Virus record (IMG/VR): IMGVR_UViG_3300049477_000066
Location: 1-43,695 of that record
Source of the DNA: a virus
Direction: 5' to 3' (one strand)
DNA: 43,695 nucleotides
Shown here in pieces: positions 1 to 43,695 of this stretch. Within the stretch, counting starts at the first letter, position 1, and the number at the start of each line of letters is the position of its first letter. The notes beneath the pieces are model-generated. The model was not told the origin of the DNA. It ran no database searches and worked only from the letters and a program-made list of their open reading frames with translations. A program made the position numbers and the translations under genes.

Positions 1-165
1 GCTGAGTACGATGCCAAGGTTAAGACTCCTGTTTATAACTATGGCAACGGTGGCTACTACGGCAAGAACTACTACACAAACAACACAAAGTTCTGCCACA
101 AAACAAGACAGTGGATTGCAGACGACGATGCTGTGGGAAAGAACCTACCCAGACAAGGGAACAAT
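1..165. repeat. Assembly overlap with 43531-43695 (same genomic locus)
   Basis: Bases 1-165 match 43531-43695 except at positions 25, 33, 37 and 38. Positions 39-165 (127 bases) are identical. The simplest explanation is a circular assembly graph opened at a 127-mer, with the first 38 bases taken from a variant strain. A genuine short terminal repeat of the virion DNA is less likely but not excluded. Confidence 0.9.
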
Positions 166-381
166 ACTGGGACTCAGTCTGGGACGGGTAATCTAATACT
201 AAGGGACGGAAGATTAATCCAAGTTAATATGCTTAAGCGTTATGCCAAGCAATTCAAACAGGAGATGGGACGTAAGCATCTTGGACTGCAAGAATTAAAG
301 GATTACATAGAAGCTATATTCAACATGCTAACAACAGAGGAGACAAAGAGTGAATCAAACAACACAACAGCAACGCTATAG
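1..381 (+). CDS. C-terminal part of the JAB/JAMM peptidase (continues from 43069)
   Basis: This is the end of the gene that starts at 43069 and runs off the right edge. Reading frame 1 from base 1 matches the frame at 43531, and bases 1-165 repeat 43531-43695. Joined across the junction the protein is about 280 residues. The piece here lies outside the JAMM core: a Tyr/Gly/Asn-rich stretch, then a charged helical tail ending in a Thr/Asn-rich terminus. The stop at 379-381 lies inside the E1 gene, whose GTG start is at 350, so the two are translationally coupled. Compared with the right-hand copy, residues read Thr and Asn where that copy has Ala and Ala, which looks like strain variation. Confidence 0.85.
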   Translation, partial: AEYDAKVKTPVYNYGNGGYYGKNYYTNNTKFCHKTRQWIADDDAVGKNLPRQGNNTGTQSGTGNLILRDGRLIQVNMLKRYAKQFKQEMGRKHLGLQELKDYIEAIFNMLTTEETKSESNNTTATL

Positions 382-1009
382 CATGGTGTATATGACAAGA
401 CATAAGGATATTATTCCTGAGTCTGTCACTAATACACCTATCACTATCATCGGCGCTGGTGCTATTGGTTCTCATGTATCCATGGGACTAGCACGAATGG
501 GATTCGCTAATCAAATGGTGATGGACTTCGACACTGTCGACGAGTTCAACATGGGATGCCAAGGTTATATGCCCAGCGATATCGGCAAGCTCAAGACAGA
601 TGCGCTAGCTCTAAAGTTCAACGAGCTAACAGGCAGCAGGCTATCCACTATGGGTAAGTACAGTGGTGGATATATTCCCGGCCGTATTATTATTGCAGCA
701 GCAGATAGCATGGCAGTGCGCAAGTTGATATGGGAAAACAGTAAGACTGCAAACCTATTCATTGACATCCGCATGGCCGCTGAGTACGCTCTTATCTATA
801 CTTCAAAGATGGAAGGGTATGATAAGACATTGTACTCTGACGAGTCTGCCGAACAGGAGAGATGCACAGCTAAGGCCACAGTCTACACTGCTATGCTAGC
901 AAGTGGTGCCGTGTGTAAAATTGTTAAAGACCATCTGGTTGATAACAAGAATACAAGGAGTGTCGTATGGAACATACAATCAAACGATTGCCGCTGGTTC
1001 AATGCGTGA
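350..1009 (+). CDS. E1-like ubiquitin-activating enzyme, ThiF/MoeB family
   Basis: A 219-residue ThiF/E1-type protein that would adenylate the C-terminus of the phage Ubl and pass it to the E2. Visible features are a Rossmann nucleotide loop GAGAIGSH at residues 35-42, an Asp pair at 60-61 (MDFD), the family pattern N-x-G-C-Q ... D-I-G-K-L-K at 67-82 (Cys where Arg is usual), and Cys172 in ERCTAKATVYTAML, placed like the catalytic Cys of ThiF-type E1s. It starts at GTG 350 after GAGGAGA and overlaps the JAB end by 32 bases; an ATG at 383 is an alternative. No separate Ubl-fold or SCCH domain is present, so this is a minimal E1. It follows Ubl, E2 and JAB in the same operon. Confidence 0.88.
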   Translation: MNQTTQQQRYSMVYMTRHKDIIPESVTNTPITIIGAGAIGSHVSMGLARMGFANQMVMDFDTVDEFNMGCQGYMPSDIGKLKTDALALKFNELTGSRLSTMGKYSGGYIPGRIIIAAADSMAVRKLIWENSKTANLFIDIRMAAEYALIYTSKMEGYDKTLYSDESAEQERCTAKATVYTAMLASGAVCKIVKDHLVDNKNTRSVVWNIQSNDCRWFNA

Positions 1010-1131
1010 TCTGTTTCGGTGAATGTAAATGCAAGTACAGAGTTTACGAAGAGGATGATGCAAATGAATACAACAAAGAACATGATGGTAGCGATAGACA
1101 TCGAGACAGTGAGCCAAGGACAAAGAGCTAA
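967..1131 (+). CDS. Small Cys-rich protein, overlapping its neighbours
   Basis: A 54-residue ORF in a different frame, starting at ATG 967 with an excellent AAGGAG site six bases upstream. Residues 13-22 carry the cluster C-x2-C-x3-C-x-C (CVICFGECKC), which could bind zinc or iron, followed by a very acidic tail. It overlaps the E1 end by 43 bases and the exonuclease start by 68, bridging the two. The ribosome site and the Cys cluster argue that it is translated. No family is recognised and it could be a chance ORF. Confidence 0.55.
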   Translation: MEHTIKRLPLVQCVICFGECKCKYRVYEEDDANEYNKEHDGSDRHRDSEPRTKS

Positions 1132-1714
1132 CGCTTACACTGACGGACTCATGCCTAAGACTGGCAATCTAAAAGACCCTGCCAAGATTAAGGTAGCGAT
1201 TGAAGAGAAGAGAGAAGAGGCAAGATCAAAGCATGGACTACACTGGTGGACTGGTAAGATTATCAGCGTTGCCATGTGCGGTGTTGACCATAAGCTTGAG
1301 CATGTTATAGCTGGTCATGACGAGGCTGATATATTAACAGAGCTTGCCAATAGTTTGAATCATAAAGCGGTAACACTGGTAGGTAAAAACTCTAAGGACT
1401 TTGACTTCCCGTTTATGATAGGCAGATACATGGCCAACAACCTATCAGTGCCTAGAGTTTTTAAAGACAGAAGTAATTCACTGGATGTTATGGATATATT
1501 CTCTAGGAATATGTCATCAGCACAGTATGGCAAGCTTGCTGATTACGCTCATGGTCTAGGCTTAGGTGAAAAGTTATTACATGGTGGTATGGTACAGAAT
1601 TTATATAACGAAATTCTTGCAGGCGACATCAGTAAATGGAAGGACATTACTGATTACAATATGCAAGATGCAAAGCTTACGGCTGAAATAGCAAGGAGAT
1701 ATTACTATGCGTGA
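1064..1714 (+). CDS. DnaQ-like (DEDDy) 3'-5' exonuclease
   Basis: A 216-residue ribonuclease-H-fold exonuclease. Exo I motif is AIDIET (Asp12, Glu14), Exo II is in GKNSKDFDFPFM, and Exo III is Y-N-M-Q-D near the C-terminus, giving the DEDDy signature of the polymerase-B proofreading type. It stands alone, with no polymerase domain. The start is ambiguous: ATG 1064 sits nine bases after GAGG, while 1055, 1058, 1082 and an upstream GTG 1019 are in frame. It probably trims 3' ends during replication or recombination, alongside the primase, SSB and Sak4-like genes downstream. Confidence 0.75.
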   Translation: MNTTKNMMVAIDIETVSQGQRANAYTDGLMPKTGNLKDPAKIKVAIEEKREEARSKHGLHWWTGKIISVAMCGVDHKLEHVIAGHDEADILTELANSLNHKAVTLVGKNSKDFDFPFMIGRYMANNLSVPRVFKDRSNSLDVMDIFSRNMSSAQYGKLADYAHGLGLGEKLLHGGMVQNLYNEILAGDISKWKDITDYNMQDAKLTAEIARRYYYA

Positions 1715-4019: not shown

Positions 4020-4279
4020 GCGCAGGATTTTTGATTAGTGATATTGGGATAGATAAAACTGCAAGTTATTTTGACTTAACGCGCGAGCAGGTGTTGGCGA
4101 TGATGGCAGGCGGCGCAACTACTTCTGATGATATTTACAGACTGAAAAAAGCAGGCAAAGAGCTTAGGGAGTTAATTGAAATGGCAAAAACACCTGATAG
4201 CGGTAGTCCTAATTATTTACCTAACGGAGTACCGCAACCTAAAAAAGAAAAATCACAATGGGGGAGAAAATGGTTTTAA
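4016..4279 (+). CDS. Hypothetical protein, 87 aa
   Basis: ATG 4016 overlaps the preceding stop (ATGA). Residues 5-60 contain a helix-turn-helix-like stretch, IDKTASYFDLTREQVLAMM, which could bind DNA, followed by a Lys/Glu helix and a Pro/Ser/Asn-rich tail. The stop lies inside the next gene. The HTH idea is tentative. Confidence 0.55.
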   Translation: MSAGFLISDIGIDKTASYFDLTREQVLAMMAGGATTSDDIYRLKKAGKELRELIEMAKTPDSGSPNYLPNGVPQPKKEKSQWGRKWF

Positions 4280-5121
4280 GAATTATAATGTTGTTACTGC
4301 TACTTGCCTGCGAAAAACCACAACCGCCGACACCTAAGCCGGAACCTGTGCCACCTGTAAATGTTGGCGAGTTAAGTAGAGGGTTCACATTAGACAACGT
4401 GGAAAATATTTCAGGCATTGTTAAATCAATCAAAGCGATGCCGTTCAAGCCGTCTGTTCGAATAGTGTTCGATTTCCCCGAAAAGCCAGCAGGTTATCGA
4501 GATGCAGTTGAGTCGATTTGCCAGATTGCTACTTGCTTAGGTCAACCAAGTGACTCGGTTTATAGCGGTAAAATGTCAGTGACGCAATTTAAGCAGCGAT
4601 TTAAAGAATACGTTGACGCCTTTCCTCAAATTAATTATTGGGAAACAACAAACGAAGCCAATATGTGCGACGAGTGCGACCCTGTAAGTAGAACAAAACT
4701 AATTATAGCACAGGCCGACGAGGCATTAAAGATTGTTAAAGCTGCTGGAAAAAAATCGGTCTTTGTGCCATATTGGAACACTAAAACCTGCGCCGACAAC
4801 AATGGGGATTATTATGAATGGACAGTTAAAAATATTTCTGCATACGTTAAAGCCGAAACGGATATTGTTGCACTTAGTGTCTATGGTTTTGATTGTGATG
4901 GCAGCGAACCTAGTCATACTATGCTTGATCGTGAGCTTGATAGGTTTGCCAGCTTATTTCCCAAAGCACACATTATGGTTGGTGAATATGGCAAGCAAGG
5001 CTCGACAAGTATTATGCGACATTATCTATCATATCGACGCATTGGATTCGGCGGTTATTGGTGGGGAAGCCAAGACTTAATTAATACCAGTGGTGCTATG
5101 TGGAAGGAGTTTGTAAAATGA
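4270..5121 (+). CDS. Lipoprotein glycoside hydrolase-like protein (clan GH-A-type TIM barrel)
   Basis: A 283-residue exported lipoprotein. It has a short signal peptide with lipobox LLLAC (Cys14), a Pro-rich linker (residues 17-30), then a (beta/alpha)8-like domain. Glu129 in WETTNE fits the acid/base Glu that follows Asn in clan GH-A enzymes, and Glu239 in IMVGEYG fits the nucleophile Glu at the end of strand 7. The aromatic GGYWWGSQD near residue 263 also suits a sugar cleft. ATG 4270 follows GGGGGAG and gives a normal signal peptide. The gene ends the AT-rich insert and looks like a moron that alters the infected cell surface or degrades host polysaccharide. The substrate is unknown. Confidence 0.7.
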   Translation: MVLRIIMLLLLLACEKPQPPTPKPEPVPPVNVGELSRGFTLDNVENISGIVKSIKAMPFKPSVRIVFDFPEKPAGYRDAVESICQIATCLGQPSDSVYSGKMSVTQFKQRFKEYVDAFPQINYWETTNEANMCDECDPVSRTKLIIAQADEALKIVKAAGKKSVFVPYWNTKTCADNNGDYYEWTVKNISAYVKAETDIVALSVYGFDCDGSEPSHTMLDRELDRFASLFPKAHIMVGEYGKQGSTSIMRHYLSYRRIGFGGYWWGSQDLINTSGAMWKEFVK

Positions 5122-41696: not shown

Positions 41697-41897
41697 ATGG
41701 CTAAGAATGTAACAGTAGAAACAGTAGGTTCAACACCTAAGATCGTCACAGCTAACACTGTGTCGGAAGCAGTACGTCTGGCAGGGCTTGACCCATCAGG
41801 CTACAACTTCCAAGTCCATGGTAATGCTGCGGATGGTCAGACATTGCTTCGCGATTACGACCATGTGTTGCTAACTAAAGCAGTTAAAGGCGCATAG
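41697..41897 (+). CDS. Ubiquitin-like protein (beta-grasp, ThiS/MoaD-like)
   Basis: 66 residues with beta-grasp order: strand (NVTVETVG), strand (PKIVTAN), helix (TVSEAVRLAGL), strand (YNFQVHGN), and L-L-R-D-Y-D-H-V-L-L-T-K-A-V-K-G-A, which follows the ThiS/MoaD ending of L-x-D-x-D-x-V-x-L and Gly. It would be adenylated by the E1 at 350-1009 and transferred by the E2-like gene that follows. The C-terminus is Gly-Ala, not Gly-Gly, so either the Ala is trimmed by the JAB protein or a single Gly is used. ATG 41697 after TAGGAGAG. It is flanked by hairpins on both sides. Confidence 0.75.
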   Translation: MAKNVTVETVGSTPKIVTANTVSEAVRLAGLDPSGYNFQVHGNAADGQTLLRDYDHVLLTKAVKGA

Positions 41898-41908
41898 TTC
41901 TATCGCAA

Positions 41909-41936
41909 ATGCCCTAAGTAATAACGCTTAGGGCAT
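41909..41936 (+). other. Long hairpin between Ubl and E2 genes
   Basis: ATGCCCTAAG, loop TAATAACG, CTTAGGGCAT: ten perfect pairs, 11 bases after the Ubl stop and 24 before the E2 ATG. It lacks a T-run (CTTCAAATTA follows), so it is more likely a processing, pausing or partial attenuation site that could raise Ubl above E2 levels. Confidence 0.7.
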
Positions 41937-41960
41937 CTTCAAATTAAGTAGGAGACTTGT

Positions 41961-43079
41961 ATGAGTAAAAGAAAGTATGAATCCTACTCTATTCGTGAGG
42001 TTGTTGAGAAGTATCCGCCGTTCGTCAAAGACACAGAGGTACTAGCGATTGCTGATTCCTTATTGTTTTTAAATCGAGCGACAATCAACACATCAGCTAT
42101 CAATGACCTGTCATACTTCAAATGTTTCTACGTTGATAAGCTATTCACTGTAGAACAGGTCGCTGAAAGGCTGCACGAAATAAGAGTTAGTGGATTCGAT
42201 AAGAAGTATATGGCAACCAAAGACAAAGCACCTATTGGTGTTGTCGCTATACCAGAAGAACTTATTTCCCAATGTGTAAGATCGAATGGCATAGGCGAGG
42301 CAAAGAATGCCGTAGTCAACGCTGTTGATCGGATGTCATCAGCTTCATTAGCTCTTAACACTAGGATTTCTGATTTAGCCATAGCAAGGGAGAGGCTAGC
42401 GACTGCCATTAAATTAGAAGAAGTTAACATAGCAGAGATGATTTACAATGGCATCGACGCTATCCATAAGGATGGCCATTGGAAATTCCTTGGGATATCA
42501 GGCGACAGGATGCTGACGTTCGTATCTGACTTCATCTATTTAAGGTATGAGGATGAGCAGATTCCGTTAGGTCACTACCTTATGAGGCTTGACCTTTATA
42601 GCAGAACATTGAGAATGTTTCCGCTTAGTAAGATGAGAGATGGATATTTCCATCCCCATCTATCATTAGATGGTAACCCTTGCTGGGGTGATGCTGCTCC
42701 TGCTGTGACGGATGCCTTTACCACTATGGATATGGTCACACTGACAAGGTTGAGTAGAGCATTACTCACCACCTTCGGACATAATCCATGGATTAATGTC
42801 ACTGACCTTAAGGAAAACCTATCTGCGTTCCCTCGTAATTCAGTGGCCACTCATAGGCTAATGGAGAATACATGGACTTGGAATTACAGAGTCAACGAGA
42901 TGCCTGACATTATAGCTTCATACTCCGACAACCCTCAAGAAATTAGAGAGATGTTGTTGCGTATGAAAGGCTATCTTTCCGCAGACTTTGAGGATGAAGT
43001 TGAGGATGAAGAGAGCGAGGACATGGCATCGAGTGGTGAATGGATTACGGAAGATGAAGAGGTAAGTTATGCAGATTAA
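41961..43079 (+). CDS. E2-like ubiquitin-conjugating protein
   Basis: 372 residues. The C-terminal half shows the E2 (UBC) fold pattern: strands H-Y-L-M-R-L-D-L-Y and L-R-M-F-P, then Y-F-H-P-H-L at 229-234 and G-N-P-C-W-G-D with Cys241 as the candidate catalytic Cys, equivalent to HPN...C of classical E2s, followed by the helix R-L-S-R-A-L-L-T-T-F and N-P-W. The N-terminal 170 residues are an extra helical region (coiled coil near 120-160). The last 30 residues are very acidic. It takes activated Ubl from the E1 and transfers it to targets. ATG 41961 after TAGGAGA; overlaps the JAB gene by 11 bases. Confidence 0.75.
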   Translation: MSKRKYESYSIREVVEKYPPFVKDTEVLAIADSLLFLNRATINTSAINDLSYFKCFYVDKLFTVEQVAERLHEIRVSGFDKKYMATKDKAPIGVVAIPEELISQCVRSNGIGEAKNAVVNAVDRMSSASLALNTRISDLAIARERLATAIKLEEVNIAEMIYNGIDAIHKDGHWKFLGISGDRMLTFVSDFIYLRYEDEQIPLGHYLMRLDLYSRTLRMFPLSKMRDGYFHPHLSLDGNPCWGDAAPAVTDAFTTMDMVTLTRLSRALLTTFGHNPWINVTDLKENLSAFPRNSVATHRLMENTWTWNYRVNEMPDIIASYSDNPQEIREMLLRMKGYLSADFEDEVEDEESEDMASSGEWITEDEEVSYAD

Positions 43080-43695
43080 AATAAAGAAAGAAGCGATGGA
43101 TAAAATTAAATACTTTGTCGCTAAGTCATCGGTAGAAATATCAGGGCTAGGCAAGGTAGAGATTATCAATGGCGAGTTCATTGTCACTCATGTTGTTTTG
43201 TGTGAGCAAGTTAATACTGCCGCCACTACTGACATGAAGGAAGAGGACATCGGCAAGGTCATGTCTGAGATGAGAGGCATCAATGGTGCTGTCACGTTCT
43301 GGTGGCACAGTCATGTGAACATGGGTTCCAATATGTCTGGCACTGATTGGGCAACAATCAAAGACTTCGGCAAGAATGGTTACTTAATAGCTACGGTTAT
43401 CAATAAGAGACATGAGATGCAGACTGTTTATTACCAAGGTAATATCCAAGGTGCACCTAGCCTCTGTATTGATAACGTCAATCTTGTTGTCGATGAGGTG
43501 AGAGATGATGCTCTAACAAAAGCTTGGGATGCTGAGTACGATGCCAAGGTTAAGGCTCCTGTCTATGCCTATGGCAACGGTGGCTACTACGGCAAGAACT
43601 ACTACACAAACAACACAAAGTTCTGCCACAAAACAAGACAGTGGATTGCAGACGACGATGCTGTGGGAAAGAACCTACCCAGACAAGGGAACAAT
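43069..43695 (+). CDS. JAB/JAMM metallopeptidase (deubiquitinase-like), N-terminal part
   Basis: First 209 codons; the gene continues at window base 166 (equivalent to the run-off at 43695) and ends at 381, about 280 residues in all. JAMM signature is complete: Glu23 in V-E-I-S-G-L-G, then H-S-H at 80-82, seven residues, Ser90, two residues, Asp93. The fold pattern (strands T-H-V-V-L, A-V-T-F-W-W, then Y-L-I-A-T-V-I) fits. In ubiquitin-like systems such enzymes trim the Ubl precursor or remove it from targets. ATG 43069 overlaps the E2 end by 11 bases. The gene is followed by E1, completing Ubl-E2-JAB-E1. Confidence 0.9.
   Translation, partial: MQIKIKKEAMDKIKYFVAKSSVEISGLGKVEIINGEFIVTHVVLCEQVNTAATTDMKEEDIGKVMSEMRGINGAVTFWWHSHVNMGSNMSGTDWATIKDFGKNGYLIATVINKRHEMQTVYYQGNIQGAPSLCIDNVNLVVDEVRDDALTKAWDAEYDAKVKAPVYAYGNGGYYGKNYYTNNTKFCHKTRQWIADDDAVGKNLPRQGNN
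43531..43695. repeat. Assembly overlap with 1-165
   Basis: Right-hand copy of the overlap; see the left-hand entry. Differences at four sites change Thr to Ala and Asn to Ala in the JAB protein, with one synonymous change. Identity is perfect over the final 127 bases. Confidence 0.9.

Follow-up and report, generated by a model that had tools for sequence, protein, structure and literature searches.

The virus record IMGVR_UViG_3300049477_000066 of IMG/VR (positions 1 to 43,695; this whole stretch of 43,695 nucleotides is referred to here as the window) encodes four coupled genes for a ubiquitin-like protein (Ubl), an E2-like conjugating enzyme, a JAB-type metalloprotease and an E1-type activating enzyme. 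We interpret this cassette, with a probability of about 0.7, as an autonomous, reversible Ubl-conjugation system that would act during the DNA-replication phase of the phage. Our confidence applies mainly to conjugation: judged from the sequences, the conjugation chemistry itself is highly probable, and for the replication-phase role taken alone we see roughly even odds. In bacteria, full Ubl-conjugation pathways are known as anti-phage defences, and plasmids carry them as PRTRC systems; to our knowledge, the phage examples so far are lone Ubl or JAB components of tail assembly.

The cassette and its four proteins

All four open reading frames (ORFs) that a preliminary description of this DNA had listed are present on the forward strand, with the JAB gene running across the window end. 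Bases 43531–43695 are a near-repeat of bases 1–165 (165 bp, 4 mismatches, no strand assigned), so the genome is circular or terminally redundant and about 43,530 bp long, the cut falling inside the JAB gene. Rotating the genome and joining its ends, as that description had suggested, gives a complete JAB protein of 280 aa. The four mismatched sites of the end repeat all lie within positions 25–38, and the assembly joins two strain variants inside the JAB gene. The gene order is Ubl (66 aa, 41697..41897), E2-like (372 aa, 41961..43079), JAB (residues 1–209, the catalytic domain, at 43069..43695 and the C-terminal part beyond the origin at 1..381, where bases 1–165 duplicate 43531–43695) and E1 (219 aa, 350..1009, with a GTG start). 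The E2 and JAB genes overlap by 11 bases, and the JAB and E1 genes by 32. Clear purine-rich Shine–Dalgarno-like ribosome sites were found for Ubl (taggagag), E2 (taggagac) and E1 (gaggagac), and a weaker one for JAB (gaagagg).

The four proteins had been recognised in the preliminary description as a beta-grasp Ubl, an E2-like protein with HPH and Cys241, a JAB protein with a perfect HxHx7SxxD motif, and an E1 with GAGAIG and Cys172, together forming a complete phage-borne set in the early region. The analysis supports this, least firmly for the E2, with matches well above chance, and it reveals the set as a widespread, conserved phage module.

The Ubl was aligned with 13 relatives. Library matches of its single sequence are weak; its profile matches SAMP2 (4e-11) as well as MoaD/ThiS, and the Ubls of sister phages match PF02597 (ThiS) at E-values of 0.0014–0.004. 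The ThiS model gave no match anywhere when run over the whole phage records. A search with the single sequence (phmmer) reaches the cognate gene of the viral record L086 at 2e-6. The AlphaFold2 model has the beta-grasp order of elements and a mean predicted local distance difference test score (pLDDT) of 92. In Foldseek, this model retrieves sulfur carriers, TtuB, MTH1743, ubiquitin, SAMP2 and SUMO with probability 1.00, at E-values of 0.003–0.03 that are due to the shortness of the protein. Its C-terminal tail reads ...LLTKAVKGA. Homologues encoded at the equivalent place in sister phages end in VKGGR, VKGGKI, VKGGAN, VKAG, VKAGA, KVKGA, KVRGG or RVEGGE; where the window has KGA, most relatives have G or GG.

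The E1 has the ThiF/MoeB fold (PF00899, E-value 5e-14, exceeding the gathering score) and matches a profile of phage E1s at 2.6e-48. In alignments with other phage E1s, the GxGxI nucleotide-binding loop (GAGAIG, residues 35–40, positions 452–469) is conserved, and K82, D119, R124 and C172 are invariant; C172, within CTAKAT (863–865), is the predicted catalytic residue. The closest solved structures are those of MccB, the NEDD8 E1, UBA5 and the Bub E2–E1. It is a minimal enzyme with a single adenylation domain. Pattern scans in which the E1 or the E2 of the window served as a single query returned no matches; alignment queries succeeded.

In the JAB protein, E23 and the JAMM motif H80-S-H82-x7-S90-x2-D93 (HSHVNMGSNMSGTD, 43306..43347) are exact and invariant in 15 relatives. 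The protein matches a profile of phage JABs at 5e-16. Among solved structures, the JAB profile finds its best relatives in an Rpn11-like protein from Caldiarchaeum subterraneum (3e-7) and in eukaryotic Rpn11/PSMD14 (about 2e-6).

The E2 assignment is the weakest of the four, likely and not proven. The protein comprises a helical or coiled N-terminal region, a UBC-like core at residues ~155–275 and an acidic C-terminal tail. Its active-site signature, H231-P-H-LSLDGNP-C241 (42651..42683), conforms to the pattern H231-P-H-x7-C241-x-G; across 17 relatives, no variation occurs at G204, H231, P232, C241 or G243. The 10 residues from His to Cys equal the spacing in the canonical HPN...C signature of E2 enzymes such as UBE2D. 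Sister phages have the versions FHPHVNSEGTPCWG and PHPNVNESGGICWG, and record L092 has HPNVNESGGICWG. When the UQ_con model (PF00179) was compared with 19 phage records, it gave three matches (E-values 0.001–0.003), all three of them coinciding by coordinates with the E2 gene, and it is the sole Pfam family matched by more than one of the 17 E2 family members. A sequence search of the PDB returned many weak E2 matches that were aligned at the HP...C motif. The AlphaFold2 core (~161–270), mostly at pLDDT 80–93, consists of a helix, a strand meander, the active-site loop and two helices. In the viral structure library BFVD, the second-ranking Foldseek match is an E2 of the giant virus Yasminevirus (probability 0.96); the viral proteins ranking first and third, each about 420 aa long, are unnamed or uncharacterised. 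The single sequence reaches the cognate genes of sister phages at 1e-10 in phmmer.

Two further features were seen in the E2 proteins of relatives. In one sister branch and in L087, the C-terminus of the E2 is extended by many CxxC pairs in a long array (L041:3849-5054, L005:4091-5218, L087:3910-5124, L102:3636-4823, L112:1329-2318), with a total of about 23–27 Cys where these were counted. The arrays resemble tandem zinc ribbons or RING/B-box modules, have no Pfam match and are possibly a built-in E3. In L086 (6717-7469, HPYVSSSGGICFG) and L102 (6908-8257, HPNIKNDAICMG, 46 Cys), a second E2-like protein directly follows the E1.

The E2 and JAB proteins also bear on whether the cassette tags proteins at all. 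The genes could instead form a sulfur-carrier module or a module for thiolation of cofactors or nucleobases, composed of a ThiS/MoaD-like carrier, a ThiF-like enzyme, an accessory Cys protein and JAB. The minimal ThiF-like E1, its annotation in phages as a thiamine biosynthesis protein, the ThiS matches of the sister Ubls and the MoaD/ThiS matches of the Ubl profile are all in line with such a function. Nevertheless, we regard pure thiamine or sulfur metabolism as unlikely because both E2 and JAB are conserved: an E2-like protein with the invariant HP...C and a JAB protein are kept in nearly every relative, whereas sulfur carriers need no E2. Furthermore, the JAB profile is nearest to Rpn11-type deubiquitinases, and no rhodanese or thiotransferase was seen beside the cassette in the regions examined.

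Distribution among phages

A viral scan with three E1s recovered the full cassette, mostly in the order of the window, in records L086–L093 and L103 (22–183 kb), several of which also contain a terminase; IMG/VR records may be fragments or mis-assigned. Seven close viral relatives hold all four genes, with one additional gene separating Ubl and E2 in L089. In the E1 tree, the window groups with L086, L087 and L089–L092 (support 100/95). L087 (45 kb) is a phage related to that of the window, as its terminase, portal and a 421-aa protein are 43%, 36% and 45% identical to their counterparts there. It has E2, JAB and E1 genes at the equivalent place, and its Ubl aligns with the family despite being missed by blastp, for which it is too short or diverged. 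Most of the other early genes are not recognisably common to the two phages, so the cassette has been retained during turnover of most of its early neighbours. Used as a DNA query against phages, the cassette gave no match.

Variant arrangements were seen as well. L099 and L100 encode a 705-aa protein with the E2 motif, followed by E1 and then JAB. In the human gut phage MT835544 (L085:3257-8291), a very divergent candidate cassette comprises a 78-aa Ubl-like protein, a 491-aa protein with PQPHIDDYQCFRG, JAB and E1; the protein encoded next has a YADD motif resembling that of reverse transcriptases. Among the matches listed in a scan of bacterial genomes, close ones (HPH E2, JAB and E1) came only from L111–L114, contigs of Planctomycetota metagenome-assembled genomes (MAGs), which may either be of viral origin and binned with the bacteria or represent a cellular reservoir.

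Among annotated phages, a tblastn search with the E1 matched Crassvirales and the Flavobacterium genus Fipvunavirus; the same search found no matches for the E2 and only chance tail-fibre matches for the Ubl. In the matched phages, the E1 is annotated as "thiamine biosynthesis protein", the preceding gene as metalloprotease or hypothetical and one further upstream as hypothetical. The hypothetical protein bears an E2 motif, YxHSH...CxG, and is preceded by the gene for a Ubl, in which K-x-K-S-G hardly varies and a C-terminal extension of 0–200 aa comes after it. All four proteins of this ThiF–metalloprotease–hypothetical cluster (phrog_15670), annotated without its function being recognised, are homologous to those of the window and in the same order; the cluster is deeply diverged, its Ubl being extended after K-x-K-S-G. 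Profile comparisons with hhalign, for which the sequences common to both sides (L005 and L041) were taken out of the crAss-type target sets, gave probabilities of 100% for E1, 99% for JAB, 92% for E2 and 90% for Ubl, against less than 1% for cross-family controls. When both bridging sequences were also removed from the window side, the values were 90% for E2 and 80% for Ubl. Profiles built from the crAss-type set alone missed the Ubl and E2 of the window; the link came from the closer set and profile–profile comparison.

The deeper branch is carried by isolated phages as well, in two groups (phiCrAss001/PhiCrAssBcn and FpV). In the cultured phiCrAss001, the cassette is gp79-gp78-gp77-gp76, with primase (gp80), uracil-DNA glycosylase (gp74) and exonuclease (gp70) nearby; the Flavobacterium phage FpV4 also bears the cassette. 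Overall, the viral scan yielded 83 E1 loci. Clustering at 90% identity reduced them to 62, of which 53 have ORFs in all four positions, as assigned by motif and adjacency and not verified one by one.

Relation to known Ubl systems

Sequence comparison places PRTRC, a system of plasmids and mobile elements, as the nearest known system. The PRTRC operon (type 6d of Iyer et al. 2006) has the order Ubl(C)-[F]-E2(B)-JAB(A)-ThiF, which is the phage order save for F, and only PRTRC ThiF proteins were matched in a search of plasmids. The PRTRC E1 profile is related to the phage E1 (hhalign 98–99%), and PRTRC protein C has KGA near its end, like the window Ubl. The relation is distant, as the window E1 scores 44 bits against the PRTRC ThiF model TIGR03736, whose cut-off is 144.75. 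The PRTRC E2 lacks a His before the Cys (PMC1779556); PRTRC-B reads PYFNTW..GKICIG, whereas phage E2s have HPH or HPN. The phage cassettes appear to lack the PRTRC genes for ParB and proteins E and F: no F-like gene was seen between Ubl and E2 in the window, where the ParB/E/F profiles themselves were not searched. Phage Ubl and E2 profiles did not match PRTRC C and B, represented by three similar PRTRC sequences only, and JAB matched weakly.

The preliminary description had likened the cassette to the anti-phage Bil operon. The likeness holds for the separate Ubl, E2, JAB and E1 genes, with the order following the naming of BilA to BilD, and fails in the proteins themselves, for which PRTRC is nearer. 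In Bil, the BilA protein is made of two Ubl domains, BilD combines an inactive with an active adenylation domain, and BilB carries a CEHH motif in which His follows Cys (PMC11354881). The window Ubl, in contrast, is a single domain of 66 aa, and the E1, at 219 aa, has one ThiF domain; the His of the E2 lies 10 residues before the Cys, and no C-x5-E-x1-H-x4-H pattern follows C241. These differences in Ubl, E1 and His position rule out membership of the Bil family. Type II CBASS (Cap2/Cap3) and the Bub-type E2–E1 fusions (L117–L119) have the E2–E1–JAB chemistry that is predicted for the window cassette and resemble it in the E1 domain; the cassette differs in its separate E2 and E1 genes and its own Ubl. 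The best match of the window E1 to a PADLOC E1–E2 model is weak and covers only about 70 residues, and no CD-NTase match turned up in the proteins scanned, which were those of the cassette and its surroundings. CBASS membership is ruled out by the unfused E1 and E2 together with this lack of a CD-NTase among the proteins scanned.

A broader proposal is that the phage carries a Bil- or CBASS-type defence against competing phages, i.e. for superinfection exclusion. The equality of the four functions, the BilA–D order and the weak E1 match to CBASS E1–E2 models all speak for it. We nonetheless find it rather unlikely, given the unmatched Bil and CBASS features just described. Moreover, Bil is an anti-phage operon, whereas the cassette is phage-borne and resides among replication genes, in the core replication block of unrelated phages and at no moron or defence site. 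Matches on plasmids were confined to PRTRC, and those in bacterial genomes, among the matches listed, to the Planctomycetes MAG contigs.

Two cellular systems provide, among solved structures, the closest matches to individual components. Archaeal SAMP2, the closest PDB match of the window Ubl, belongs with JAMM1 to cellular SAMP systems that lack an E2. The ubiquitin operon of C. subterraneum, whose Rpn11-like protein is closest to the window JAB, is likewise cellular and adds a RING E3. The window cassette is thus predicted to work like a Ubl-conjugation operon and yet forms a phage-borne branch of its own.

Genomic context and proposed role

The gene after E1 encodes a PolB-type 3'-5' exonuclease (1019..1714, forward strand; PF10108 3e-8, phrog_403 8e-16) and is followed on the same strand by genes for Sak4 (5287), primase (7197), resolvase/endonuclease (8167) and helicase (8510); terminase, portal and structural genes are on the opposite strand of the window. 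Across lineages, the neighbours of the cassette are primase, DNA polymerase, helicase, Sak4, resolvase, exonuclease and uracil-DNA glycosylase, and in the deeper branch it usually lies between primase and recombination genes. In phages of at least two lineages, the cassette is located in a DNA-replication/recombination block and not in a defence or moron locus. Its conservation in the early replication/recombination block of many tailed phages makes a role in early infection most likely. Upstream of the window Ubl are small ORFs and a 238-aa protein without a library match. The early arm also encodes a 287-aa protein with a lipoprotein-like leader and no clear family (4258-5121).

Ratios of nonsynonymous to synonymous substitution rates (dN/dS) were obtained for one crAss-type group. 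They are ~0.05–0.09 for the Ubl core as against 0.3–0.5 for its extension, 0.04–0.16 for E1, 0.2–0.5 for JAB and ~0.55 for E2, the fastest of the four. The Ubl core is under strong purifying selection in this group. Fast evolution of the E2, while Ubl and E1 stay fixed, would be consistent with a change of partners on the side of the E2.

According to the mechanism that we propose, JAB may mature the Ubl by trimming its tail. The E1 would adenylate the Ubl C-terminus, take up the Ubl as a thioester on C172 and hand it on to the E2, at C241, for attachment to target lysines; JAB would then take the tag off the targets, reversing the conjugation. The targets would be nucleic-acid or regulatory proteins of the phage, the host or both, early in infection; the simplest assumption is that they are proteins at work in the replication phase. 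The preliminary description had also raised the tagging of virion proteins, and no evidence points to virion substrates.

The same description had envisaged a decoy or counter to host Ubl defences. JAB might, for example, strip host Ubl tags, or the Ubl might compete for host E1 and E2. Phage proteins are indeed known to receive Ubls from the host (Hor et al. 2024, as cited in PMC12660748), and according to one proposal, JAMM proteases have proliferated in the viral-like Borg elements to counter such tagging (PMC12660748). For such purposes, however, one or two components would suffice, whereas the cassette retains all catalytic residues, those of the E1 and E2 active sites being conserved family-wide, and lies in the replication block. 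Its carriers include phages of Bacteroides and Flavobacterium, with no sign of linkage to host Bil, and a decoy role seems to us very unlikely.

Several observations weigh against an autonomous conjugation system acting in replication. The window E2 itself has no Pfam E2 match; its full-length model is poor beyond the core (whole-model mean pLDDT 61), and in Foldseek against the PDB that model has no significant match, the best being the TSG101 UEV at an E-value of 0.46. The window Ubl terminates in GA, not GG, and one crAss-type subgroup (L015, L020, L047, L054, L067 and L084) has a K-x-x-K-A-A tail without Gly, whereas glycine is the rule elsewhere. The purifying-selection values come from relatives and not from the lineage of the window, and involvement in replication is read from gene neighbourhood alone. 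Finally, no E3 or substrate emerged from the analysis.

The open-access literature searched yielded no earlier account of a Ubl cassette encoded by phages; none is listed in the relevant passages of a jumbo-phage survey (PMC7824862) or of the 2006 survey of ubiquitin operons (PMC1779556). In the widest form of our interpretation, tailed phages, with the crAss-like phages of the human gut among them, have long retained within their replication machinery a complete and autonomous Ubl pathway, which would provide a regulatory layer of tagging, predate the divergence of several lineages and be independent of host Ubl immunity; we put the chances of this at about even. If true, phages themselves, among them a cultured gut phage, run ubiquitin-like signalling, and the record of pre-eukaryotic ubiquitin systems would gain E2s of the canonical HP[N/H]...C type together with Ubls of the SAMP/ubiquitin type. 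What phages tag, and why, would then become testable in phiCrAss001 or in the Flavobacterium FpV phages.

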